From positions 1 to 43,322 of IMG/VR virus record IMGVR_UViG_3300023242_000348: DNA of 43,322 bases. One strand, written 5' to 3'. Shown one piece after another: positions 2 to 43,322 of this stretch (positions are counted from its first letter, which is position 1; the number at the start of each line of letters is the position of its first letter). Origin of the DNA: a virus. The position numbers and the translations under genes are program-made. The notes below the pieces were generated by a model, which did not search any database, was not told the DNA's origin, and was given only the letters and a program-made list of their open reading frames with translations.

Positions 2-1093
2 GTAGGTTGGGTAGTATCTGATTTATTTATTGCGCGTATGGATAGAGGAGATGCTGACGCTGTAGAGAGATACCGTAGAGCACTCAAGGTAAAAGCATTA
101 ACAGGCAAGGGATACTTCTTCTTCGTAGATAAAGTAAACAGAGCTAACCCTTCTTCTTACAAGGTTCATTCATTAGATGTTAAAGCTAGTAACCTCTGCA
201 CTGAGATAATGCTTCACTCTAGTAAAGAAGAAACCTTTACCTGTGTACTCTCTAGCATGAATCTTAGTAAGTACGATGAATGGAAAGAGACAACGGCAGT
301 CTTTGACTCTACTATATTCCTAGATTGTGTAGCCAGTGAGTTCATAGAACTAGCTAAAGATATACCCGCGTTATCCAAGGCTGTACGTGGTACTAGAAAC
401 GGAAGACCTCTAGGCTTAGGTGCCTTAGGCTTCCACACATTAATACAACAGAAGATGTTACCTTTGGATTCATTGGAAGCATCTAAGTTGAACAAGGAGA
501 TATTCCATCTACTTAATAAAGAAAGCAAAAGAGCGAGTAAGTTCTTGGCTAAAACACTTGGAGAGCCTGCGTACTGCGTGGGACTTGGACTTCGAAACAC
601 TCATCTTATTGCTGTTGCTCCTAACACTAGTAGTGCTTTGCTTTGTGGAGGTGTTTCTCAAGGCATAGAGCCAGTGGTTGCTAACGTGTATAATCAACCT
701 ACGGCAGCAGGAGAGATATACAGAGTTAACCCTGTGTTCCTAGAGTTAGCTAAGAAGCGTGTTGGATGGGATTCTAAGTTAGTCAAGAGTATCATTAATA
801 ACAATGGCTCAGTACAGCATCTAGAATGGTTAACCCCCTTAGAGAAAGAAGTATTCAAGACTGCTTACGAGATTGACCAGTTAGCATTAATACGACTAGC
901 AGCACAACGACAGCCTGATATAGACCAAGGACAATCCCTTAACTTATTCTTTGATGCAGATGAGGATGAAAGAGTTATCTCTAGTGTACATAGAGCCGCG
1001 TTCAAGAATGAGAATATCAAGGCTTTGTATTACATGAGAACCAAGGCAGGCGTATCTGCTTCCAGTGGCGAATGTCTTGCTTGTGAGGGCTAA
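2..1093 (+). CDS. nrdA: Ribonucleotide reductase large subunit (class I alpha, NrdA-like), C-terminal part
   Basis: Reduces ribonucleotides to deoxyribonucleotides for phage DNA synthesis. The reading frame is open from the first bases of the window, so the N-terminal part lies outside. Visible family signatures are NLCTEI (active-site Asn, Cys and Glu of the radical site), CVLSSMNL (partner cysteine of the redox pair), PNTSSALL (substrate-phosphate loop) and a C-terminal tail ending GECLACEG, whose CxxC pair normally passes electrons from thioredoxin or glutaredoxin. The intact tail fits an active class I enzyme. The small subunit is not in the window and is expected upstream. A stem-loop (1106-1132) and a small gene follow. 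Confidence 0.93.
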   Translation, partial: VGWVVSDLFIARMDRGDADAVERYRRALKVKALTGKGYFFFVDKVNRANPSSYKVHSLDVKASNLCTEIMLHSSKEETFTCVLSSMNLSKYDEWKETTAVFDSTIFLDCVASEFIELAKDIPALSKAVRGTRNGRPLGLGALGFHTLIQQKMLPLDSLEASKLNKEIFHLLNKESKRASKFLAKTLGEPAYCVGLGLRNTHLIAVAPNTSSALLCGGVSQGIEPVVANVYNQPTAAGEIYRVNPVFLELAKKRVGWDSKLVKSIINNNGSVQHLEWLTPLEKEVFKTAYEIDQLALIRLAAQRQPDIDQGQSLNLFFDADEDERVISSVHRAAFKNENIKALYYMRTKAGVSASSGECLACEG

Positions 1094-3064: not shown

Positions 3065-3238
3065 TTACTTACCTTTGGGCACTTGGCCTACATTTAGAGC
3101 AAGTATATCTAAGAAGGGTTTTATTTTGTTAAAGATAGCATCGTCTTTCTTAGTAGGAGTAATAGCAACAATGGCACTAGCTACTGTTACTAAGGCAGTT
3201 AGAGTGTTAAGTATTAAAAATAAAGTATCTAAATTCAT
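3065..3238 (-). CDS. Small one-helix membrane protein (57 aa), lysis-cassette type
   Basis: Reads MNLDTLFLILNTLTALVTVA, then ASAIVAITPTKKDDAIFNK and a short amphipathic tail ending GQVPKGK. One N-terminal transmembrane helix is followed by the TPTKKDD turn and a short helix, a pattern I recognise from small proteins in other phages' lysis or tail-end cassettes. AAAAGGAAAC precedes the ATG by six bases. The stop ends one base before the start of the 148-residue membrane protein, implying translational coupling. It is a candidate second holin, antiholin or pinholin-type protein; none of these is proven. Confidence 0.72.
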   Translation of the reverse strand: MNLDTLFLILNTLTALVTVASAIVAITPTKKDDAIFNKIKPFLDILALNVGQVPKGK

Positions 3239-3265
3239 AATGTTTCCTTTTAAAGTGTTGGTTAG

Positions 3266-3700
3266 TTAATGAGAATACTTAAGTAAAGTGTGTTCTACTT
3301 TGTATCTAAACTTATCACATTCTTCTCTTATGTTTTTAGCAGTAGCCAAAAGACTAACTCTTGTGAGTAACTGCTGTATACCTATGGGCTTAGCTATATA
3401 ATCCGCAACACGTAAGTGGACTGAGCTAAGAACATCAGCTTTGTTTTCAGAGGCAGTCATAAATACAACCTCACTCTGAGAAGTGCTAGGGTTTTGTCTT
3501 AGTTGTTCACATAGCTTCAATCCACTTAGGTGTGGCATGTTTATAGCTAATAAGATAATAGTGGGATTAAATTCAATAGCGGCTTGTAACGCTAGTTGAC
3601 TATCAGAAACTATCTTGTATTCAATATCTGTGTGCGAGAGAGCCTCCCTAATAATAGCTAATTCAATCTCACTATCATCTACTACCAAAAGCTTTATCAT
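3266..3700 (-). CDS. CheY-like receiver domain lacking the phosphoacceptor Asp (pseudo-receiver)
   Basis: A stand-alone 144-residue response-regulator receiver. LLVVDDSE gives the acidic Mg-binding pair D8-D9, VVFMTAS gives the switch Thr T82, and YIAKPIG gives the invariant K104-P105. The phosphoacceptor position, in LLAINMPHLSG, is Ala52 (codon GCT on the coding strand) instead of Asp, so normal phosphotransfer cannot occur there. A helical extension of about 30 residues follows the domain; there is no output domain. Its ATG overlaps the stop of the membrane coiled-coil gene (3697-4011) as ATGA. It may act by binding a host histidine kinase, response regulator or the neighbouring membrane protein. 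Confidence 0.88.
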   Translation of the reverse strand: MIKLLVVDDSEIELAIIREALSHTDIEYKIVSDSQLALQAAIEFNPTIILLAINMPHLSGLKLCEQLRQNPSTSQSEVVFMTASENKADVLSSVHLRVADYIAKPIGIQQLLTRVSLLATAKNIREECDKFRYKVEHTLLKYSH

Positions 3701-4011
3701 TTGTTTCCCCTGTCAGTTATGTTTAAGCTTAAAGCGTTCAATTGACCATAGATTTTCTGTGTCATATCTAAGAAACTAGAATTGATAACTTTAAAGTCTT
3801 GTTTTAATTCACGTACCTCTTGTTCCAAGGTGATGATTCGTTGTTGCTGTACATCTACTACCTCTATTATTATTTCTTTTATCTTGTTCTCTGTAGGTAT
3901 TTCTTTTACTTTATTATTCAAGGAGACTACCCACGCGATAGCCCCCACAATAACTCCTATAACAGAACCTACTAGCATAATGGCCTCTAACTCTTGCCCT
4001 TCCAGTACCAT
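3697..4011 (-). CDS. Membrane-anchored coiled-coil protein (104 aa)
   Basis: An N-terminal membrane helix around residues 9-29 (AIMLVGSVIGVIVGAIAWVV) is followed by about 70 residues of heptad-like helix (IITLEQEVRELKQDF) ending in a polar tail. The single N-terminal anchor plus coiled coil resembles inner-membrane spanins or small phage membrane regulators. No lipobox partner was seen, so spanin is only one option. AAGAGGAAT precedes the ATG. It is first in the cassette that includes the pseudo-receiver, and its stop overlaps the receiver start, so the two are probably co-translated and may work together. A shared control motif lies just upstream (4026-4042). Confidence 0.65.
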   Translation of the reverse strand: MVLEGQELEAIMLVGSVIGVIVGAIAWVVSLNNKVKEIPTENKIKEIIIEVVDVQQQRIITLEQEVRELKQDFKVINSSFLDMTQKIYGQLNALSLNITDRGNK

Positions 4012-4025
4012 CCCATATTCCTCTT

Positions 4026-4042
4026 AAGTAACCCTAGTATCT
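4026..4042 (-). promoter_or_regulatory. Copy of the TACCTWRGGTTACTT motif upstream of the lysis-like cassette
   Basis: The minus strand reads AGATACTAGGGTTACTT 15 bases before the start codon of the membrane coiled-coil gene. Fifteen bases (4023-4037) are identical to 28984-28998 in the main control region. The orientation agrees with transcription of the cassette. The role (promoter, operator or processing site) is not known. Confidence 0.45.
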
Positions 4043-4057
4043 TAATAACGATTATAA

Positions 4058-7000
4058 CTACTCTCCATACACTCTATTAAACGCTCTTAGTAGAGGCCCA
4101 AAGACTTCTCCTAGTTCGTAACGGCTATCAATAGGGAGCATTTTACCTGTGCTATCTTTGTTTTTCTCAAGTTTACTTATGTATTTAAAAGCAGAAAGAG
4201 CTTCTTCTCTTGTCCAACCCGCGTTCTTAATCTCTTGCATACGACTAATAATTCTATCATCAGCAGTTTCTCCTTCTTTCAAAGGTTCTTTCTTCTTATT
4301 AATTACACTTTGTTTCTTTAACATAGTAGAAAAACTTACATCATCTGGTGTTGCTTCCCCTTCTACTTCATCCTCTTCGGCAGGAGGAGAACTTCTTTGT
4401 AACTCCTCTAAAGGAACAATGTTCTGCTGCCCCAACAACATGTTCGTTATATTTTCATCTACTGACATTTTCGTAGGAGGTGCAAATCTTTCTTCTTGTT
4501 CAATAGTATCATCTACCTGAGATTCCCTATCTTCCCTAGCCATTTGTTCTAAGAAAGCAGCATCTTCTTCTTTACTAGGTTGCTCAGAAACATCTTTCAA
4601 CTCCGCTGATACCTCTGGTTTTACTGTAGTAGTTGCTTTGAATAAAAACTTCTCTTCAGAATTAGCTTGTTCTTCTAGTATAGCTTGGGCTTTCTCTTCT
4701 TCTCCTTCTTCTTTAAACTCTAAGTATCTTAAGTAGGAGTCTAAAGCATTAGTTCGTAGGCTGTTACCCGCATACATGTAGATAGAAATAGTCCTGAGTT
4801 TTCCCCTTGGACTCATATTTGATGCTTCTATTAACTCTAGTTTACCTAGGAAAGTAGGGTCAACCAAAGAATGAGCTATTATCTCTTTAGGTATCTTACT
4901 AGATAAAACATTCATTCCTTTTATAGATTGTATAGCAATACGTGTAGCGGAGTTAACTACAGCATACTCCATACTTATTATATTCTTGTGGGCTAGAGTT
5001 ATGTTGGAGAAAACCATAGGTAGGAAACCAAGTGCCTTATTAACTACCCCTTTCATACCAGTGGCTTCTTTACTATCTGCAGGTATCTTCTTCTTGCCTA
5101 CTCTAGATTTTAAATCACTAACTTTATTTGATACAGATATTAACCCTTCTATATTATTTATTAACTCAGGACCCCCGGGTAACATAGATATACCTTCTTT
5201 CAATATATTTAGTTTAGAAGCAGTACCTTCTACGTTAACCTCTCCTTTACTATTCATACTTATGATATCTTTACTAGCTATCTTAAGAAGCACAGGTGCC
5301 ATTAGACCTAAGGAACCTTGGGAAGCAGCCTCTGCTATAGATAATGTAGTATCATTAAGATTAGTAAGCATAGACAAAGCAGCGGCACCATCATCATTGG
5401 TAAGATTATATAAACTCTTATTGAATCCCTTCTTGTATCCTTCCTGAGATTCCATTAAGCCATTAACGATACTCATGATATCATTGTTATCTGTGGTCTT
5501 AACGAGTAAGTCTATTTTACTTTTTAACTTGCTGTCTTTCATATTCTTATAAGCTAGAGAAAAAAACTTATTATCCATTAAAGTAGCCACAACAGTAGAC
5601 ACATGTTTAACGGGGTCTTTATCCGTACCTACCATGTTTGCTATGTCACTAAAAGCATTCTCTACATACAGATGAACTACTGCATCATTTATAGTCTTAC
5701 CTTCCTTCTCAAGTATCCTATTTAAATCCTTATCAGAATCCATAAGTTTACCTAGGTTGTTCCTTACTACTATATCATTAAATCCATTCAATATATTATT
5801 AGGTGACGCACCAATAGTTTCTTTAAACTGTGAAACCATTTCGGGAGTAGACTCTACTTCCCCTAGTAAACGAGAGATGAAATTGGTGTAGGTACCATCC
5901 TTTTCTTTCTTAGTACCTTTACCTAACACACTATTCTTATCACTTCTTGCAGGTAGTATATCATTCTTAAATAAAGAATCTATCTGAGTCTTGAGAGTTT
6001 TCTTAGTTGTACCTCCTTCGCTAATTTTACTTAAGACCATATCTACATCTGCGTTTAACTCTGATATTATATTAGTCAAGGACATAAACCCTGCATAATC
6101 ACCAGCGGCTTTTAAATCCGACGCTCTCTTACTAAGCTTTGTTAACATTGACTGAGTTTGCTTATAAGGTAACTGTATCTTAGTAAGGTCAATCATAGGC
6201 AATACTTTATTAAACATAGTTAAACCTGCTTGTACAGTACTCTCATTCTTACTAAGTCTTACTGATTCTAATAGGGTATGAAAGATAGCCGCCTTAACCT
6301 TTGCGTTATCGTCTCTTGCATTCTTGTTCAAATCAATATCAAGGGCTACTTGCTTTTCCCCAAAGCGAATAGAGTTAAGACCGCCCTCATTAGTTATATC
6401 TGCCAATCCTCTCATGTCAATAGGAATCAAAGGTATATCTAAATCAAGTACTCCTTTAGGTGACTTTAAGTTAAACGCCTCTATAGTTACTACACCTGTC
6501 TTCGAGTCTGTAACATTCCTAACTGTAAAAGAAGGTAAAGTCTTCTTACTATTCTTACTATTCTTATTAGGCTTAGTAGGAGTAGCATTAGGGTCCACAG
6601 GGAACATGGTTCTGAATTGTTCCTGAGTTATATAAATAGTACTGCCTTTTATACTGTTAACATCAAAGTACTTAGGCAGCGGTGAATCAGGTAACGTATT
6701 AAATATATCGGGAACAGCAATATTATTTCCTGTTACAGAAGATTGTAGGTAAGTAAATAAGTTGTCCTTGTATTCTCTTGAAAGTATGTTACCTCCCTCT
6801 GATTTGGAAGTTAACTGAGTAACAACCGCATTCATCTTAGAAAGAACTTGAGGTATCTTTATAGAATTATTAGGGTCTACTTGGTTATACATAGTAGTTA
6901 AGTTATCTTTTATTCCTGTCATTACCGACTGAACACCTTCTCTAATAGAATTTAAAGAGGAGTTAGTAGTAGCTCCTGTAGGATTCATAGAGTTAAGTTG

Positions 7001-10931: not shown

Positions 10932-11765
10932 TTACTTCTCCTGTCTTATAGGTTGACCTTGAGGAACCATAGGTTGACCTTGAGGAACCATAGGTTGGCC
11001 CTCTGGCATCATAGGTTGACCTTGAGGAACCATAGGTTGGCCCTCTGGCATCATAGGTTGACCTTGAGGAACCATAGGTTGGCCCTCTGGCATCATAGGT
11101 TGACCTTGTGTTTTCATTGGTTGGCTTTCACTTTCCACTGAACCTACAGCTTTTTTTGCTCTTGCTAATAAACTCCTAGGTGCATTAGAGGGAGCCTGTA
11201 CATCATCTACAGTTAACTTCCCCTTCTCTTCTATATCTTGCTCCTCGTACTTCGCCATTAGGTCTCTGCTAGCTTGCTTATACATCTTAGTTTTAGAATC
11301 AGTTTCTTCATCGTCAGCCATATCATCTTCAGGATACAGAACAGGGTCGATGTCAGCATAAGTAGCTAAAGCAATCATAGTGTAGATAGTAGGTTCAATA
11401 GCTAACATAAGTAAATCAGCACTAATCTCACCTTTACTAAAAGAGTTCATTAAGTACTTCTCAGTTATATACTCTATAGGTATTCCCTTTCTTAAGGAAT
11501 CCAAGAGTAAAGGGAGTTTCTCTGGAGTAGTCATTGTTAAAAAGCTCTCCTCCAGGAACTCCTGTAAGTCTGTGTACTCTGCAGGTCTCTCATAAGGAGC
11601 AGGATTATCAGGGTTTTGCGTAAGAGACTGCCCTGGTATAGGAGCTGTTTCCATAACCTGCCCTAACTCCTTTGCTTCAGGACTACTCTCAGGTAACCTA
11701 GGACGTTTATAAGGAGTGGTACCTTCGTCACCTGCATATTTCTTTAGTTCTGCCATTATACTCAT
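10932..11765 (-). CDS. Putative virion protein with a Gln-Pro-Met repeat tail (277 aa)
   Basis: The first two thirds are acidic and helical; the C-terminus is a low-complexity tail built of units such as GQPMMPEGQPMVPQ. The repeats are encoded by a 42-bp DNA unit (10948-11105). The start overlaps the stop of the upstream gene by ATGA. The 140-220 segment is strongly charged (EDDMADDEETDSKTKMYKQ). A similar acidic protein with a disordered tail could be a core or scaffold-like component; no named family is recognised. Confidence 0.6.
   Translation of the reverse strand: MSIMAELKKYAGDEGTTPYKRPRLPESSPEAKELGQVMETAPIPGQSLTQNPDNPAPYERPAEYTDLQEFLEESFLTMTTPEKLPLLLDSLRKGIPIEYITEKYLMNSFSKGEISADLLMLAIEPTIYTMIALATYADIDPVLYPEDDMADDEETDSKTKMYKQASRDLMAKYEEQDIEEKGKLTVDDVQAPSNAPRSLLARAKKAVGSVESESQPMKTQGQPMMPEGQPMVPQGQPMMPEGQPMVPQGQPMMPEGQPMVPQGQPMVPQGQPIRQEK
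10948..11105. repeat. 42-bp tandem repeat in the tail of the 277-aa virion gene
   Basis: Alternating 21-base modules (ATAGGTTGACCTTGAGGAACC and a variant with GGCCCTCTGGCATC) repeat at least three times almost without change. They encode alternating QPMVPQG and QPMMPEG. Near-identity at DNA level points to recent expansion or gene conversion. Confidence 0.85.
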
Positions 11766-12913
11766 ACACTTAATCCTAATAATCTAGTGGAGTTCATTAC
11801 ACCCTCCTGTAAGCCAGCTATAGGGTTTAGTAACGAGTAGCCAGAGCCACCTACACCTCTACGTTGATTTAATGCACCTGTATTAATATTAGAAGGAGCA
11901 TCTGGTGTTGCTACCCTACGTGTTCTTACAGGTTCTCCTGTACCCGCGCCGCCACCAAGGAAAGACTTAGCTGTTCTTGCATTAGATATAGCTTTACTAA
12001 TATTAGGCTTACCTGAGTTATAAGTAGGATTCTTTATAGCGTTTACGCCTTCTTTACCATATTTCATGAAAGCATCTTGGTCTGATAAGGTAGAAGGAAT
12101 GCTATCCATACCATACAAAGCTTGACTTGCTTGTTGCTCTACTGTTGCTAAAGGCGTATTTAAATTAGAAAACTGTGGTCCTGTGTTAGACAGCCCGTTA
12201 CCTAAGTTACTACCTACGTTACCTACGTTTGTAGTAAGAGAAGGATCTAAAGGCATTCCTGTTACAGGAGATAAAGGTCCTCCAGTAATAGCAGTAGGGT
12301 CTAATCCCATATCTATTGCTTCAAAAGAACCACCCGGGGTTGCTCCCATTACTTGAGAAGGGTCTGCTAACAAAGTACCAGCACTTTGAGCCGCAGTAGC
12401 AGCAGCAGCATTAACACTCGCCATACCCGCTTCACCAGATAAAGCACTCATCATATTATTACCGAAGGAACTGGCAGCAGCACTAAAGTTACCTGATGCT
12501 AAGTTACTTGCTCCTTGAGATACAGCATTACCTAAAGCACCTATAGTACCAGCAGCGAAATTACCAGCAGCAAAAACACCTGAACCTACGTTACCTAATG
12601 TAGACACTAGAAGATTTCCACTAGCAGCCATACCAGCAGCCCCTGCCCCAAAACCCGACCATAAAGCACCCAAAGCTGGCCCCACGATAGGGGCTAACAC
12701 AAAGGAAAGAGCCATCATACCTATAGGGCCAAGCTTACCTGCTAGCTTACCAAACCCCGCCATTACTTTAGTTCCTAAGCGTCCTCCTTCTTTCCATAGT
12801 TTTTGACCACCGGGAATAGAAGTAATTACACCTTTAGCTACCTTCTTTATCCCTTTCGCCACTCCTTTAACAGCTCCTTTAACGCCTTTCCACGCTTTAC
12901 TTAACCATCCCAT
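11762..12913 (-). CDS. Putative membrane-active internal virion protein (383 aa)
   Basis: The N-terminus is a run of amphipathic, Lys/Gly-rich helix (GWLSKAWKGVKGAVKGVAKG), followed by a small-residue hydrophobic region around residues 60-130 (IGMMALSFVLAPIVGPALGA). This layout is typical of peptides that insert into bilayers. The C-terminal part is polar and Gly/Asn-rich. Among the internal virion genes, this fits a protein that helps open a path through the cell envelope during DNA entry (inference). The stop overlaps the next gene by ATGA. Confidence 0.55.
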   Translation of the reverse strand: MGWLSKAWKGVKGAVKGVAKGIKKVAKGVITSIPGGQKLWKEGGRLGTKVMAGFGKLAGKLGPIGMMALSFVLAPIVGPALGALWSGFGAGAAGMAASGNLLVSTLGNVGSGVFAAGNFAAGTIGALGNAVSQGASNLASGNFSAAASSFGNNMMSALSGEAGMASVNAAAATAAQSAGTLLADPSQVMGATPGGSFEAIDMGLDPTAITGGPLSPVTGMPLDPSLTTNVGNVGSNLGNGLSNTGPQFSNLNTPLATVEQQASQALYGMDSIPSTLSDQDAFMKYGKEGVNAIKNPTYNSGKPNISKAISNARTAKSFLGGGAGTGEPVRTRRVATPDAPSNINTGALNQRRGVGGSGYSLLNPIAGLQEGVMNSTRLLGLSV

Positions 12914-12917
12914 ATTA

Positions 12918-15900
12918 TTATCCTCCTACAAATTCGTTTACTTTCAAAATACCATCTAGGATATTACCTAAGGTATCACCTGCTACATTACCTAATGCAG
13001 TATCATTTGCTAGGACTGCAGCATCTAACATTGATTTACGATTCTTATCATTCTCACTCATGGTGAAGTTGTTGTTAGCTTCATCACGCATCTCTTGCCA
13101 TAACAAGGCAGTACCATTAGTCTTAAGGTTAAAAGCAGATAGAACGTTAGCAGCATTGACAGCGTTTTGACCCGCTGTTTCCGCTGTATTAATATTGCGT
13201 CTCCATGTAACATTAGATTGCTCTATTATGGAAGCGTTCTTAGCGTTAAAAGCAGCCCTCTCATTTTCAGCAGCAACATTAAAACGGACCATTGCATTAG
13301 CTTCTTGAGAGTTACGCGCATTAATCATGTTCCTCTCAGATACTCTTGCTCGCTCCATTGCATTAACTTCTGCTACATTCTGTAAGGATACTTTATTTAA
13401 CTCTAGAGCACGTAATGCATCTCTCTTGTTTTCTTCTGAACTGTTAGCAGAGTTTATTATGTTCTCTTGATTAGCAACAAACTCCTGTCTTTGGTTACTC
13501 GCTTGTGAATTAAGAACTGAGATTCTATTTTGCTCACTAGCAGTAAACTCACCACGTCTATTACTTGCTTCTATGTTAGCTAAGTTTATAGAGTTCTCTT
13601 GTGTATTGTTATATTCGCCTCTTCTGTTGTTCTCGGTTATATTCTGAGATTCCATTCGGTTTAATTCAGAAGCACTAAACTCACCACGTCTATTAGTGGC
13701 TGCTGCATTAGCTAAGTTTATAGAGTTCTCTTGATTACTATTGAACTCTCCTCGCCTATTACTCTCAGTTATATTCTGAGATTCCATTCGGTTTAATTCA
13801 GAAGCAGTAAATTCACCTCGTCGGTTCATCGCTTCGGTATTAGCTAAGTTTATGGAGTTCTCTTGAGTAGTATTAAACTCACCACGTCTATTACTTTCAG
13901 TAACATTCTGAGCTTCCATTTGGTTTAACTCAGAGGAACTAAATTCTCCTCTTCTGTTTATTGCCGCTGTATTAGCTAAGTTTATGGAGTTCGCTTGATT
14001 ACTATTGAACTCTCCTCGTCTATTACTTTCAGTAACATTCTGAGCTTCCATTCGATTTAACTCAGAAGCATTGAACTCTCTTTGTCTATTTATTGCTGCT
14101 GTATTAGATAAACCTACAGTGTTCTGCTGATTAATATTAAATTCATCACGTTGATTCTGAGCAGCTAGATTCTGAGAAGTCATACGATTCTCTTCCCCTA
14201 CGGAGAACTCAGTGCGTCTGTTAGTAGCCGCTGTATTAGCTAATCCAATAGTATTCTGCTGATTAATATTAAATTCAGCGCGTTGGTTTCTAGCCGCTAC
14301 ATTCTGTGCTTCCATTCTATTTCTTTCTTGGGCAGCAAACTCATTTCTTGTATTAATAGACTGAGCGTTAAACTGTGATATAGCATCCCTACGAGAAGCA
14401 TTACTCATGTCAACCTGAGCTGATAAGTTAGACATGAATTGATTCTTCTGGTTTATAGAAGTAGCATTAAACTGTCTACCCGCGTAATCTTGAGCAACAT
14501 CAGATAACATAACCTGTACTCTAGTTTGGTATGTTGTCTTTCTACTATCTTGCTTAAGAGTAGCATTCTGTTGAGCCATAGGCATTGCACTTTGTATAAT
14601 AGCATTGAATAGAGAATCCCTTCCAACACTAGAGGCGCTGATACCTCTTCCAGCTAACATTTGTTCTACCTTAGTTACAGCGGGTCTTGCCCACATGGGT
14701 ACGTTACCTTTGTCCATACCCTCTAATAAATCATTCATCTCGTCTGTCATAGAGGCAGCATTGAAAGGGTCAATTTTCTCTAGTTCATCAAGACCTTTCG
14801 ATACTGATTCCATATCAATAAGAGATGCTTCAAAGTCTTTAACAAGAACATCACTAGCTGCCTTAGCTAACTCAATAGCTTCTATAGGAGTAACCTTTCC
14901 TTGTGCAGCTTCTTCCGCTATCTTAGCAAGGGTTTGTGCTGCTAGACCTGCAGCTTTCGTTGTCCCTTGCGCAGCATCCCCTGCTAAAGAAGCTATTGTC
15001 TGGGAAGCTTCTCTTAGTTGTTTAGCTTCTCCTCTTGCTATATCTCCCGCTAGTTGCGCTTGGGTAGTACTAGCGTTTCCTAGCGAATCAGCAGTACCTT
15101 GAGCTGCAGTACCCGCTAGTTGCGCTTGGGTAGTACTAGCGTTTCCTAGCGAATCAGCAGTACCTTGAGCTGCAGTACCCGCTAGTTGCGCTTGGGTAGT
15201 ACTAGCGTTTCCTAGAGCATCAGTAGTACCTTGAGCTGCAGTGCCTGCTGTAGCGGCATTAGCTTGAGCTGCCTTTCCTATATTTAGCGCATTAGCTTGA
15301 GCTGCAGAGACTACGCTAGCTGCTTTTGTATTTGTTGTTTCCCCTAGAGGAGCAGCGTTACTTATCTCCGCTTCTCTTGTTTTAGTATTAGAAGCGTCCT
15401 TAGCACTCCCTTGCTGTGTTTGACCAAGAAAACCAACAGTAGGGTCAATATCCCCAGCTTCTATTTCTTCCTTACTCATACTCTGGTATTCTTGCTTTAA
15501 CTTGTTATCCTCTAGGTACTGCCCAGGGCTATTCATTGACTCATCAACAAGTCTTCTAGCTTCAGCTTCTCTAGTTTCAGCAGCAGTAGGACCTAAGGGA
15601 GTCGGAGGTACTAAAGTACTAGGTTCTAAATCCGCTTCAGGTTCTCTTGAGACATCCTCTGTACCTGTGCTTACCCTTAATCTTCTTTTGTAATCATTCC
15701 CCATGTTCCCTTTAGTATTATAAATAGGAGGTTCATCGAGAACCTCAAGAGGCTGTCTATTAGGGTTACTGGAACTATTGTTAGGAGTAGCCCCTGTTGA
15801 AGCATAGAATCTATCGCTATCTCTATTTGTATTAGTTACGGGTTCTCTTCCGTTGTAATTACTTACAGGCTGCTGTATAATTCCTCCTTCTATAGTGTCC

Positions 15901-36230: not shown

Positions 36231-38366
36231 ATGAAAATGTCACACTTAGATTCAACCCCCGCAGAAACATCAGGCTTCACTTCATCAGGATTTGGTTTCG
36301 AGATGAACGCCAAGATGTATAGTATCTTCCTTGATAAGATGTACAAGGATAAAGCAGGCGCAGTGATTAGAGAATTATCTGCTAACGCATGGGACTCCCA
36401 CGTAGACGCAGGTAACACTCTAACACCTTTTGAAATACAGCTACCCACTTGGTTAGATAAAACGTTTAGTATCCGTGACTATGGTACAGGGATTCCTCAT
36501 GATAGCTTTGAGCATGTCTATACCAACATAGGTAACAGTACTAAAGAACACTCCAATGATTTCATAGGTAGTTATGGTCTTGGTTCTAAGTCACCTTTCT
36601 CTTTAACAGATACCTTCATAGTAGATAATATACACGATGGTATCAAGAGTGTCTGGGTATGCTTCAAGAGTGCAGGGTTTCCCCAAGTAACAAAGGTATC
36701 CTCGGAGCCTACTGATGAACACACAGGTGTTAAGGTTTCTTTCTCTCTCGAGAAGTGTATGGAGAGAGACTTTAGACAATCCGTTGTACGTCAGTTGAGA
36801 TTCTACACTCTAAAGCCTATTGTCACAGGGGCTGACTTACCTATTGTGTTCCCAGAGATGCCCAACTTAGAAAATGGGTATGCTTACGACGGAGAAATAA
36901 GAGAGAACCTATTGGTCATGGGTAATGTTAACTATCCTATAGACTTAGATAGCTTAGGTGCATACGACAAAGGAGGTAAATACTTAGATGCCTTAGGTGC
37001 ATACGACAAAGGAGGTAAATACTTAGATATCTTCCGTACTAACATAATACTTAAAGCAGAGTTAGGTGATGTAGATATTCCACCTTCTCGTGAATCATTG
37101 GAATACACAGAAAAGACTAAAGAGTGGGTATATGCTAAAATAGATAGAATCATAGAGGAACACAAAGCTAATTTTATATTATCCTTAAGTGAGTGTACTA
37201 CAGTAGTAGAAGCAAGTATCTTAACGAGTAAAAGTAACTCTAGGTTACTAGATTTTACACAGGATAGGGTTTTTGAAATAGGAGGATTTCCTATTAAGTG
37301 GACTGCTCTAGTAGCTGGTAGGGTTTCTTTCCTTCCTTTACATAGTAAGAAGTATTTTACACCTAGTAGAGCAAACAAGTTTCCTGAGCACAACCAAGAG
37401 TTTATACAGGTAGAACACTTACAGCAGACTCTAATACTTATTAACGATTACACTAATAATCAAGTGCCTTTCTTTAAAGAACACATAGAGGATACTATCC
37501 TTCCTTACTTTAGGAACTCAATCCCTTACAGTAAAATGATAATACTAAAGGCTCAGACTACTTACGATAAGCTAACCTTGGAAGAGGACACAGTATTACT
37601 TAAAGACAGGTTACTTAAAGAATACAATGTAAAGGCTGTTACGTTCACGGAAGTACTAGGTATCCCTCCTATTAAACTTAAGACCACTAAGCAGTATAGT
37701 AACTCCGAGCCTAATCAAGTGTTCACTATTAATAACTATGATGCTTTTGAGACACGACAGAAAGAACAGTTTACTGAGTATAAAGAGAAAGACCTCCCTA
37801 CCGAAGGTTATTACATAGAGTTATCTAACTGGAGTTCTCTTCCAAATCAGTTATCTATAGCTTGGATAGCTAACCTTGTTTCCCTTACAAACACTACGAT
37901 ATACGCTGTTCGCAGTAAAACAGTAAAGAAACTACCCTCTACCTTAAAACCTCTAGTCAAAGGTCTTACTACTTTCAACAAAGCCATAAAGAAACACCTA
38001 CAGAACTCTCGTGACTATGATGCAATGGGTACTCAGGTGGTAAGGCGTATTCCTCTCTATGCTTTCACTCTCTTAGCCGAAGGAGACAAACATACAAAAC
38101 CTTTACTTTCATACATTAAGAAGTACTCAGAGATGTATGTACTTACTTCTTGTAACAATAATATACTAAGGGCTATATTAAGGAAACAGGAGCCAACGTG
38201 GGAAGAAGCACCATTAGTAATACCTACTAAGGTAGTTGCTTCCTTATCCCATTACAATATAAACTACAGGAAACTAATTGACACTCTAACTTATAATGTT
38301 GTTACACTAAGAGATATCAATAGCAACATCGCAACCATCCGCAAACTATCTAACTTCATCAAATAA
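36231..38366 (+). CDS. rIIA: rIIA-like protein with GHKL-type ATPase domain (711 aa)
   Basis: The N-terminal 130 residues carry the Bergerat ATP-binding motifs: VIRELSANAWDSHVDAGN (E48, N52), IRDYGTGI (D83, G85, G87) and IGSYGLGSKSPF (G113-G118). This with the large helical remainder and the neighbouring rIIB-like gene identifies the rIIA family. In T4, rIIA and rIIB act at the membrane and decide exclusion by lambda Rex and lysis inhibition; the biochemical role is not settled. A 39-bp in-frame tandem duplication (36953-37030) repeats LGAYDKGGKYLDA around residues 241-266. AAAGGATAACAAAG precedes the start. Confidence 0.88.
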   Translation: MKMSHLDSTPAETSGFTSSGFGFEMNAKMYSIFLDKMYKDKAGAVIRELSANAWDSHVDAGNTLTPFEIQLPTWLDKTFSIRDYGTGIPHDSFEHVYTNIGNSTKEHSNDFIGSYGLGSKSPFSLTDTFIVDNIHDGIKSVWVCFKSAGFPQVTKVSSEPTDEHTGVKVSFSLEKCMERDFRQSVVRQLRFYTLKPIVTGADLPIVFPEMPNLENGYAYDGEIRENLLVMGNVNYPIDLDSLGAYDKGGKYLDALGAYDKGGKYLDIFRTNIILKAELGDVDIPPSRESLEYTEKTKEWVYAKIDRIIEEHKANFILSLSECTTVVEASILTSKSNSRLLDFTQDRVFEIGGFPIKWTALVAGRVSFLPLHSKKYFTPSRANKFPEHNQEFIQVEHLQQTLILINDYTNNQVPFFKEHIEDTILPYFRNSIPYSKMIILKAQTTYDKLTLEEDTVLLKDRLLKEYNVKAVTFTEVLGIPPIKLKTTKQYSNSEPNQVFTINNYDAFETRQKEQFTEYKEKDLPTEGYYIELSNWSSLPNQLSIAWIANLVSLTNTTIYAVRSKTVKKLPSTLKPLVKGLTTFNKAIKKHLQNSRDYDAMGTQVVRRIPLYAFTLLAEGDKHTKPLLSYIKKYSEMYVLTSCNNNILRAILRKQEPTWEEAPLVIPTKVVASLSHYNINYRKLIDTLTYNVVTLRDINSNIATIRKLSNFIK
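36953..37030. repeat. 39-bp in-frame tandem duplication inside rIIA
   Basis: Two copies starting at 36953 and 36992, identical at 37 of 39 bases. They add 13 residues between the ATPase core and the following strand region. Confidence 0.92.
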
Positions 38367-41219: not shown

Positions 41220-41645
41220 ATGGCATTATTACGCAAAGTATCAGTTTTATTCTCAAACGTTAGTAACATCGACACCTTCTCTAATAAGTTTCAGCTAGTA
41301 GTTTCCTTAACAGAAGACCAAGCAGCCGATGCAGAGCAAGAAGGTATCAAAGTTAAGACTAAAGAGTACGATGGTAAAACACAGTACCAAGCTACATTCA
41401 AGACCAAGTTTCCAGTACGTATCGTGGATGCTTCTGGCAAGAAAGATGTCCCTTTAAATGGGTCTGAGATTGGTAGAGGTTCTCTTGTTAATCTCTCGTT
41501 CAAGATGCGTGACTTTGTTACGCCTAGTAAAGAGACAGGTGTTTCTCAGGACTTAACAGGTGTACAAATCTTAGCTATGGAATCAGTCAATGCTTCCGAG
41601 TTCGAAGCGGAAGAAGGCTTTGAAGATGCTTCTGGTGACTTCTAA
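41220..41645 (+). CDS. ssb: Phage single-strand DNA-binding protein (141 aa)
   Basis: Begins MALLRKVSVLFSNVSNIDTF; a compact beta-barrel-like core rich in strands and basic/aromatic residues (KTKEYDGKTQYQATFKTKFP), and a strongly acidic C-terminal tail ending EEGFEDASGDF. The acidic tail ending in Phe is the hallmark by which phage and bacterial single-strand-binding proteins touch replication partners. It has its own strong promoter, fitting high demand, and a terminator follows. Not an EcoSSB-type sequence; family call is by composition, tail and position before replication genes. Confidence 0.72.
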   Translation: MALLRKVSVLFSNVSNIDTFSNKFQLVVSLTEDQAADAEQEGIKVKTKEYDGKTQYQATFKTKFPVRIVDASGKKDVPLNGSEIGRGSLVNLSFKMRDFVTPSKETGVSQDLTGVQILAMESVNASEFEAEEGFEDASGDF

Positions 41646-41727: not shown

Positions 41728-42120
41728 ATGCAAACTAAATACAAAACTGAATTATGTGACTTCTTCAACGCCCCCTTAAACACAGGTGATTTAGTACTAG
41801 GTGCCATAGGTTCCAATAAATACCACCAAACTAAATTCAAAATAGCTGTCGTAGTAGGTAGGACTGCTAAAATGGTAAAGATAGTACAACTAATAGCACA
41901 ACAGACTGACGTTAGCACTCTTACTCCTGATGTTGTATGCGACATGGTATTCTCTCGTTTCGTAGGTAAAGGAAGGATAGGCGCTCGTTTCTTTAGTGAC
42001 GAACTTGTTAAATTTAAACACCAATTGATTAATCAACAGGATATTGATAGAATACTTTTAGAAGCTGAGGAAGAAAATAAAAAACACCCTCAGTTATCAT
42101 CTAACCCTTTTTCTTTTTAG
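41728..42120 (+). CDS. Hypothetical protein (130 aa)
   Basis: Begins MQTKYKTELCDFFNAPLNTG. The first part, NTGDLVLGAIGSNKYHQTKF followed by KIAVVVGRTAKMVKIVQL, is a strand-rich barrel-like domain of a type often seen in small phage proteins; the C-terminal third is helical and acidic. AAAGGAAAACTA precedes the start, and the next gene follows after nine bases. Function unknown. Confidence 0.68.
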   Translation: MQTKYKTELCDFFNAPLNTGDLVLGAIGSNKYHQTKFKIAVVVGRTAKMVKIVQLIAQQTDVSTLTPDVVCDMVFSRFVGKGRIGARFFSDELVKFKHQLINQQDIDRILLEAEEENKKHPQLSSNPFSF

Positions 42121-42129
42121 GAGATACCA

Positions 42130-43155
42130 ATGAAACTAGCAATAATAATAGGCAACTTCCAACCTTTACACAATGGTCATGTTACCCTTATAAACAAAGC
42201 AGTAGAAGATAATGATAGAGTCTTGATTCTAATAGCAGGTATCAACAAGTTACCTAATTACGTTAGACCTTTTAGTTTTCAAGATAGAAAGGTTCTTATG
42301 GAGAAAGTAATCCAGAGTAATAAGTTAGATATCCGAGGGTTACCTGACTCCCCTACTAAAGAAGAGTGGGTATCTAATGTTATAGCCCATCAATGTAGTA
42401 TCGAAGAAGACCCTACCCATGTAACTCTATACACGAGTGAGAAAGAGAGAGACTTTTACTCTGAGGCACTATTGTATACCGTGGAAACAGTAGATGAACT
42501 ACCTATAAACTCAGTTGACATAAGAAACTTGTTTTACGCTGCATCCTCTGATTTAAAAATACTTTCTTCGCTAGTACCCAAGGATACATTATCTTTCCTA
42601 GGTGACATAGAAGTAGGGGAGTTGTGGAGATTATCACAAGAGAAAACAAAGTGTGAAGAGTTATCCTTAAGTAAGAGACAAGAACATTCACATAACAATT
42701 CCATAGAACCTGTAGCACACGCTATTATAGTTCAGAACCAGAAAGTATTAACAGTAATACGTAAGTCTGTTAGAGGGTATGGACAAAGAGCATTAGTAGG
42801 AGGTTACATAGATTACAAAGAAGAATCTATGGGCGCTGCCATGCGAGAAGCACTAGAAGAAACAGGGGTAGACTTGATAGACTTAAGTAAACAAGGAAAA
42901 TGCAAGTGCCTTGTTAGGTCCATAGAAGAAAACCTTAGTGATATAGGCTCCCGCACACTTGGTATTAATTACCTGTTCATTATCAAAGAAGACTTAGAGT
43001 TAAAAATAGTACCTTGTCCTAAAGAAACACTAGGTTATGAGTGGGTAGTCTTAGACGATATACTTAGGGAGAAAGAGCTATTGTTCTTTAATCATAACTT
43101 AGTAGTACAGAGGGTGTACAGTATGTTAAGCTCTAATGCGACAACAAAAAAGTAA
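42130..43155 (+). CDS. Bifunctional NMN adenylyltransferase / Nudix hydrolase (341 aa)
   Basis: Makes NAD from nicotinamide mononucleotide and ATP. The N-terminal domain has GNFQPLHNGH (8-17) with the HxGH nucleotidyl-transfer motif and INSVDIR (126-132), the ISSTxxR-like motif. The C-terminal Nudix domain has a complete GX5EX7REUXEEXGU box: G225, E231, R239, E240, E243, E244, G246; it probably cleaves ADP-ribose or a related product. The same architecture occurs in NadM-Nudix enzymes and the phage NatV type (KVP40). In a phage it can refill host NAD, including NAD removed by defence systems. AGGAGATACCA gives the start. Confidence 0.9.
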   Translation: MKLAIIIGNFQPLHNGHVTLINKAVEDNDRVLILIAGINKLPNYVRPFSFQDRKVLMEKVIQSNKLDIRGLPDSPTKEEWVSNVIAHQCSIEEDPTHVTLYTSEKERDFYSEALLYTVETVDELPINSVDIRNLFYAASSDLKILSSLVPKDTLSFLGDIEVGELWRLSQEKTKCEELSLSKRQEHSHNNSIEPVAHAIIVQNQKVLTVIRKSVRGYGQRALVGGYIDYKEESMGAAMREALEETGVDLIDLSKQGKCKCLVRSIEENLSDIGSRTLGINYLFIIKEDLELKIVPCPKETLGYEWVVLDDILREKELLFFNHNLVVQRVYSMLSSNATTKK

Positions 43156-43168
43156 GTAAGGATTAAAC

Positions 43169-43322
43169 ATGAGTGGTACTATAATTGAGTACGGCTTACC
43201 ATGTACAGCGAAGGAGGGGTCATGTGGCTCCTCTAACGCTATGGTACGCTACGAGGATAACGGCATGTTCTGCCATAAGTGTCAAGGTCATAACAACTCT
43301 GAGAAAGGAGGTGACTACGTAC
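43169..43322 (+). CDS. DNA primase / helicase (T7 gp4-like), N-terminal zinc-finger fragment
   Basis: Only the first 51 residues are inside the window. C12, C19, C35 and C38 (GSCGSSNAMVRYEDNGMFCH) form the zinc-binding domain of T7-type primases, which reads the priming site on single-stranded DNA. The first cysteine pair is spaced x6, whereas T7 has x2; this may reflect an altered first ligand. AAGGATTAAAC precedes the start. The gene continues beyond the right end; polymerase and other replication genes are expected next. Confidence 0.82.
   Translation, partial: MSGTIIEYGLPCTAKEGSCGSSNAMVRYEDNGMFCHKCQGHNNSEKGGDYV

Follow-up and report, generated by a model that had tools for sequence, protein, structure and literature searches.

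We consider there to be about an even chance that the window (the whole stretch of DNA that was analysed, 43,322 bases long, which is one whole viral record and a fragment of a genome) holds a NAD-salvage locus of the NARP2 type that has lost its first enzyme, NAMPT, and whose second enzyme, a NadM-type fusion of an NMN adenylyltransferase (NMNAT) and a Nudix hydrolase, has undergone changes in its NMNAT pocket and has kept its Nudix domain. NARP2 is made up of NAMPT and an NMN adenylyltransferase. Passages in four papers are consistent with this make-up (PMC6715854, PMC9503650, PMC12300627, PMC11984713), and a passage in the first of them describes the NAD-salvage pathway of KVP40 as functional (PMC6715854). 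As in the NadV-NatV/NARP2 systems, a NAMPT partner is present in the close relatives of the window, whereas none was found in the window's 43 kb or in the syntenic slot.

The NMNAT-Nudix gene opens with an ATG that is preceded by a ribosome-binding-like GGAG stretch, and its reading frame is intact (Table 1). Two Pfam profiles, NUDIX (41.7 bits) and CTP_transf_like (29.6 bits), match the product above their cut-offs, and seven NCBIfam NMNAT/Nudix models match as well, the best of them with 92 bits (E 3.6e-26, residues 4-329), which lies far below the 397-bit equivalog cut-off of that model. The protein also matches FtNadM (2qjt) by sequence. A structure model predicted from 59 aligned sequences reached a mean pLDDT of 94.2 and a pTM of 0.88, and the solved structures nearest to it are the NadM entries 2qjt, 2r5w and 2qjo (Z 34.0-34.4 over 323-324 residues). 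The similarity is far beyond chance, and judging by the model the protein is full-length NadM-type, with the NMNAT domain followed by the Nudix domain. With NadM of Francisella (2qjt, 2r5w) and of what we take to be Synechocystis (2qjo) it shares the two-domain fold, the HxGH motif, the arginine of the second motif and the Nudix box, but it is 19-21% identical to these proteins and reads GNF, AG and RP where they read GRF, GS and NP. Among annotated phages, 331 records match the window protein, all at below 60% identity; the best 60 of the 331 lie at 22-27% and include the homologous NatV of KVP40 (25%).

The window ends inside a gene on both sides, its left edge truncating a ribonucleotide reductase gene and its right edge a primase-helicase gene. 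Terminase, portal, RIIA and RIIB genes of phage type are present, no tRNA genes were found in the 43,322 bases, and from the relatives of the terminase we infer a podovirus-like phage. On the minus strand, at 3266-3700, a response-regulator receiver domain protein (Pfam, 74 bits) is encoded among small genes beside a 1659-aa ORF, all in a minus-strand block. The RIIA protein (36231-38366) contains a 12-residue stretch, LGAYDKGGKYLD, that is tandemly duplicated at residues 242-253 and 255-266, with one residue between the copies.

Table 1. Features at the two ends of the window and at the NMNAT-Nudix locus (positions in the window)
Feature	Position	Strand	Remarks
Ribonucleotide reductase large subunit, C-terminal part	2..1093	+	Truncated at the left contig end; far border of the unseen segment
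gp2.5-like single-strand DNA-binding protein	41220..41645	+	Syntenic anchor in 8/9 relatives; L013 begins downstream of the anchor
130-aa protein of unknown function	41728..42120	+	Upstream of NMNAT-Nudix; match at the equivalent place in 5/9 relatives
NadM-type bifunctional NMN adenylyltransferase/Nudix hydrolase, 341 aa (predicted)	42130..43155	+	ATG ORF, family profiles, structure model
NMNAT domain, about residues 1-167	42130..42630	+	H14, H17, R53, D73, W80, R132 kept; R9N, G36A, S37G, N46R, D106E changed
Nudix domain, about residues 187-331	42688..43122	+	Nudix box complete
13-bp gap in the NAMPT slot	43156..43168	+	AAGGA ribosome-binding-like stretch just ahead of the primase start
Primase-helicase start, Cys-rich zinc-finger-like N terminus	43169..43322	+	Matches the L012 primase-helicase at 73% (49 aa); truncated by the contig end

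A search for close relatives with the single protein found none; alignment searches did recover a clade, consisting of the window protein and nine closer relatives from uncultivated phages (L012, L013 and L092-L098) that are 37-46% identical to it. Two of these, L092 and L093, are near copies of each other, and a search with the single-strand DNA-binding protein returned four loci, all in records already known. As mapped by tblastn with proteins of the window, L012 and L013, the visible gene order in the relatives is RIIA, RIIB, a gp88-like gene, the single-strand DNA-binding protein, a small gene and NMNAT-Nudix; the window shares with them, where visible, the operon order of single-strand DNA-binding protein, small gene, NMNAT-Nudix and primase-helicase. 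Downstream there follow, in the relatives, an RNA-ligase-like or 87-aa gene (in some only), NAMPT, the primase-helicase and a DNA polymerase. NAMPT is encoded on the same strand and starts between -4 and 930 bp past the NMNAT-Nudix stop in all nine relatives, and it stands between NMNAT-Nudix and the primase-helicase in all eight in which the primase-helicase is visible. The NAMPT of L012 has its best matches in 7yqo (pre-B cell enhancing factor related protein, 325 bits) and in chains named as NAMPT (up to 299 bits), and is less close to Namat (9W5W/9W5X, 194 bits). We would also like to note that in L013 the match of the primase-helicase ORF (3133-5790, 885 aa) to that of L012 is interrupted by a long insertion that may be an intein.

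In the window the NAMPT slot is empty, and the NAMPT profile PF04095 has no match in the 43 kb. The same profile was found in 9 of the 10 clade records, the exception being the window, and in each of the 58 larger records (at least 87 kb) with an NMNAT-Nudix gene. In all, NAMPT is present in 67 of the 67 other NMNAT-Nudix records searched, which cover the nine relatives and, outside the clade, full matches in records of at least 87 kb; these records are partly non-independent (besides the near copies L092 and L093, several of the large ones are close kin). According to a passage of a published survey, NadM is always accompanied by NadV in phages (PMC9503650). A tree of 55 rows (the window, the nine relatives and 45 of the 122 distant rows picked at random; midpoint root) places the window gene with L092-L095 at a support of 100/98, within a ten-member clade supported at 100/100. 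Outside the group of the window and L092-L095 lie L012 and the L013/L096-L098 group, all of which bear NAMPT. Because the window gene is nested inside a NAMPT-bearing clade, the absence of NAMPT looks derived, and since all nine other members have NAMPT, it is simplest to assume one loss, on the branch of the window.

As the contig is a fragment, however, NAMPT may have been relocated to the part of the genome that lies beyond its ends; with an active NMNAT, NAD would then be rebuilt from nicotinamide as in NARP2. We regard such a full pathway as unlikely. The presence of NAMPT in 67 of 67 other records and the strict co-occurrence reported in the survey passage (PMC9503650) both speak for such a move, and KVP40 has natV at 94.5 kb and PF04095 matches at 134.7 and 138.7 kb (L027 record, 244,834 bases), which means that partner genes need not adjoin. 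In contrast, NAMPT and NMNAT-Nudix are less than 1 kb apart in nine of nine close relatives, so that a relocation would be novel for the clade, and among the clade the pocket changes described below are confined to the member without NAMPT. The unseen segment, from the primase start to the ribonucleotide reductase, spans about 9.8 kb in G003 and 12.7 kb in G009, two 63-kb relatives; by synteny, and assuming a shared gene order, the unseen part of the window's genome would thus come to about 10-13 kb. Both of these relatives have a single NAMPT, located outside the segment that is unseen in the window, and in G009 one small gene of the unseen-segment region is placed elsewhere than in the window.

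The second line of evidence for the reading that we favour, loss of NAMPT together with an altered NMNAT, comes from the pocket. The NMNAT half keeps the two histidines of HxGH (H14, H17) and the arginine of the second motif (R132), plus R53, D73 and W80. Five further pocket residues, which are strongly conserved though not established as NadM-defining, are replaced: R9, present in 120 of 122 distant members, is N in the window, G36 (122 of 122) is A, S37 (118 of 122) is G, N46 (114 of 122) is R, and D106 (118 of 122) is E. All nine relatives retain each of these five residues and have NAMPT, unlike the window. N9, A36 and R46 are unique to the window among 132 rows (the window, the nine relatives and 122 others), and also over 134 rows; S37G and D106E are each present in two of the 131 other family members. 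The solved enzymes 2qjt, 2qjo and 1f9a have GRF, GS and NP at the changed positions, and position 9 of the window protein is the equivalent of Arg11 in the archaeal NMNAT, of which R11A and R11K mutants have been crystallised (1m8f and 1m8g, per their structure titles). A further candidate lesion, T129V in the second NMNAT motif, was dropped, since V is also found in 13 of the 122 distant members; an early count for this position had lost 45 of 154 rows because sequences were filtered by length and by Nudix box. Going by these residues, the ATP/NMN pocket of the NMNAT half appears altered. The first-pass annotation, made from the sequence alone, had named the gene an NMNAT-Nudix enzyme with both active sites complete; the family call is borne out by the Pfam and NCBIfam matches and by the Z of 34 of the model to NadM structures, and completeness holds for the Nudix box but not for the NMNAT pocket, with its R9N, G36A, S37G, N46R and D106E.

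We call the pocket altered and not proven dead, because the lineage is divergent in general and because counting all events gave no significant result. The family set was drawn from 154 matches, from which 8 (<290 aa) and 2 (span <250 aa) were removed to leave 144, of which 134 are distinct, including the window. Two of these, L138 and L140, have a Nudix half that looks unrelated to NadM and were excluded from the tests, with 122 distant rows and the nine relatives remaining. Breaks at columns conserved in at least 90% of the 134 rows were counted leave-one-out. For NMNAT, the window has 7 breaks in 19 columns and its nine relatives have 1-3; for Nudix, it has 5 in 19 and they have 3-7. The next-highest NMNAT breaks in the 134 rows are those of L138 and L140 (7, not NadM-like), L156 (6) and L068 (5, all N-terminal gaps). 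Against reading the pocket as specifically altered, the lineage is divergent overall: no branch of the clade is longer than that of the window, be it for NMNAT (0.94) or for Nudix (0.60), and the window has the lowest mean identity in the clade for Nudix (43.8%), gp88 (58.8%) and RIIB (54.7%), though not for NMNAT. Private changes of the window at the 90% threshold number 7 at 30 conserved Nudix sites and 6 at 22 conserved NMNAT sites. When all events in the clade tree were counted, conserved sites showed no significant excess of change, either in NMNAT (P 0.26 at the 90 and 95% thresholds, 0.16 at 85%) or in Nudix (P 0.79, 0.68 and 0.87). If the count is restricted to single-event NMNAT sites, the window branch holds 5 of the 7 (P 0.001), but this restriction was picked post hoc, with the data already seen. 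An excess of change at the pocket is not statistically secure. The gene is not a plain pseudogene, given that its ORF is intact and that its NMNAT domain is as clade-like as that of L095 (mean identity to the clade 44.6% vs 44.5%).

An NMNAT that works without a phage NAMPT could account for the same residues, its NMN coming from the host or from NAD consumers (e.g., an NAD-dependent ligase) and R9N and N46R compensating for one another. H14, H17, R53, W80 and R132 are all kept, the ORF is intact, and the reciprocal exchange, R to N at position 9 and N to R at position 46, could preserve charge; such a compensating swap, retaining a pocket arginine, would also count against the altered-pocket reading. 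We doubt this explanation, as there is no obvious compensation for G36A and S37G, and none of the 67 other records searched has the gene without NAMPT.

The protein may also have been repurposed, a reading that we put forward only tentatively. The pocket would then have been rewired (R9N/N46R, GS to AG) for another nucleotide or as a scaffold, and the Nudix domain alone would act on ADP-ribose-type signals or NAD derivatives. The Nudix box, GX5EX7REUXEEXGU, is complete (G225-x5-E231-x7-R239-E240-x2-E243-E244). Where other NadM proteins have FDxPxRSxRGRT, the window reads EENLSDIGSRT and the clade is similar in outline; across the whole clade the Nudix half has lost the FDxPxRS motif that is present in other NadM proteins, so ADP-ribose is not to be assumed as the substrate. 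The window's Nudix domain might clear ADP-ribose.

Elsewhere in the family, the first glutamate of the Nudix box (the column of window E231) is absent from 29 of the 122 distant phage proteins as aligned here (K in 18, R in 6, another residue or a gap in 5), and the Nudix half may thus be inactive in some phage NadM lineages, unlike in the window. The NMNAT-Nudix protein of L156, a 332-kb phage record (9986-11119), has both HxGH histidines and the second-motif arginine replaced and breaks 0 of 19 conserved Nudix columns; a NAMPT gene adjoins it (11384-13054). Going by these residues, its NMNAT site may likewise have been lost.

An assembly artefact that deleted NAMPT between NMNAT-Nudix and the primase would undercut the loss, which after all depends on one metagenome contig, but we think it quite improbable, as the junction is clean and intergenic with a ribosome-binding-like site ahead of the primase start, and the pocket changes are intragenic and independent of the junction. 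A search of viral contigs with the 30-base junction gave no match; it missed the window's own record as well, and so tells little.

A different NAD-rebuilding route known from phages, NARP1 (Adps and Namat), was also considered: neither PF04095 nor the pyrophosphokinase profile PF13793 has a match in the window's 43 kb. PF13793 does match in the phage Slicky01, whose terminase was the top-listed match to that of the window (44.7% identical); a further terminase search returned mostly distant phages. Slicky01 encodes a NAMPT-like protein beside a ribose-phosphate pyrophosphokinase gene (OQ508958.1 49629-51910; L004 1630-3911), and this protein scores 444 bits against Namat 9W5X, 379 bits against 9ke8 (labelled NAMPT) and at most 169 bits against the other chains listed. 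Judging by these scores, the two genes are likely a NARP1 pair that has been annotated otherwise. A search for NMNAT-Nudix in Slicky01 and two other terminase relatives, run without a positive control, did not find it. Given the NARP1-like pair of Slicky01, related phages seem to carry different NAD-rebuilding routes.

Under loss of NAMPT with an altered NMNAT pocket, the ancestor would have been a podovirus-like phage with a NAMPT-NMNAT pair for NAD salvage (of the NARP2/NadV-NatV type) in its replication operon, and NAMPT would have been lost from this locus in the window lineage. The protein appears to have kept its fold, as modelled; going by sequence, the adenylyltransferase retains its catalytic His/Arg and the Nudix box is complete. 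NMN from a phage NAMPT would no longer be supplied, and the window protein would no longer perform the second step of phage NAD rebuilding. The NMNAT half may then have been weakened or retuned; selection may be keeping the Nudix half, whose substrates would be compounds linked through pyrophosphate, of the ADP-ribose, NAD or a similar type; or host NMN may be used instead. The first-pass annotation had suggested that the gene may be half of a NAMPT plus NMNAT pathway that counters NAD-depleting defence. The link to such a pathway is strongly supported by the relatives, with NAMPT in 67 of 67 other records searched; for this phage, with its empty slot and unusual pocket, and with an unseen part in which the two 63-kb relatives do not keep NAMPT, the evidence points away from a complete NAMPT plus NMNAT pathway.

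The NMNAT-Nudix family, its NAMPT partner and the counter-defence idea already appear in passages in print (PMC9503650, PMC6715854). In the open-licence literature, with searches that were aimed more broadly, we found no phage NMNAT-Nudix that stands without NAMPT and has such a pocket. NARP pathways are described, in passages of two papers, as countering NAD-depleting defence (PMC12300627, PMC11984713), and the NMNAT-NAMPT pair of the relatives, placed beside replication genes, would fit a role in the upkeep of NAD during DNA replication or during NAD-depleting defence. The window gene, as an apparent exception to the rule that NadM always comes with NadV, and with its pocket changes, offers a natural test for a separate role of the Nudix domain; repurposing, if true, would convert a NAD-rebuilding enzyme into a signal-clearing one. 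The gene also bears on how phages exchange or dismantle NAD-rebuilding pathways.
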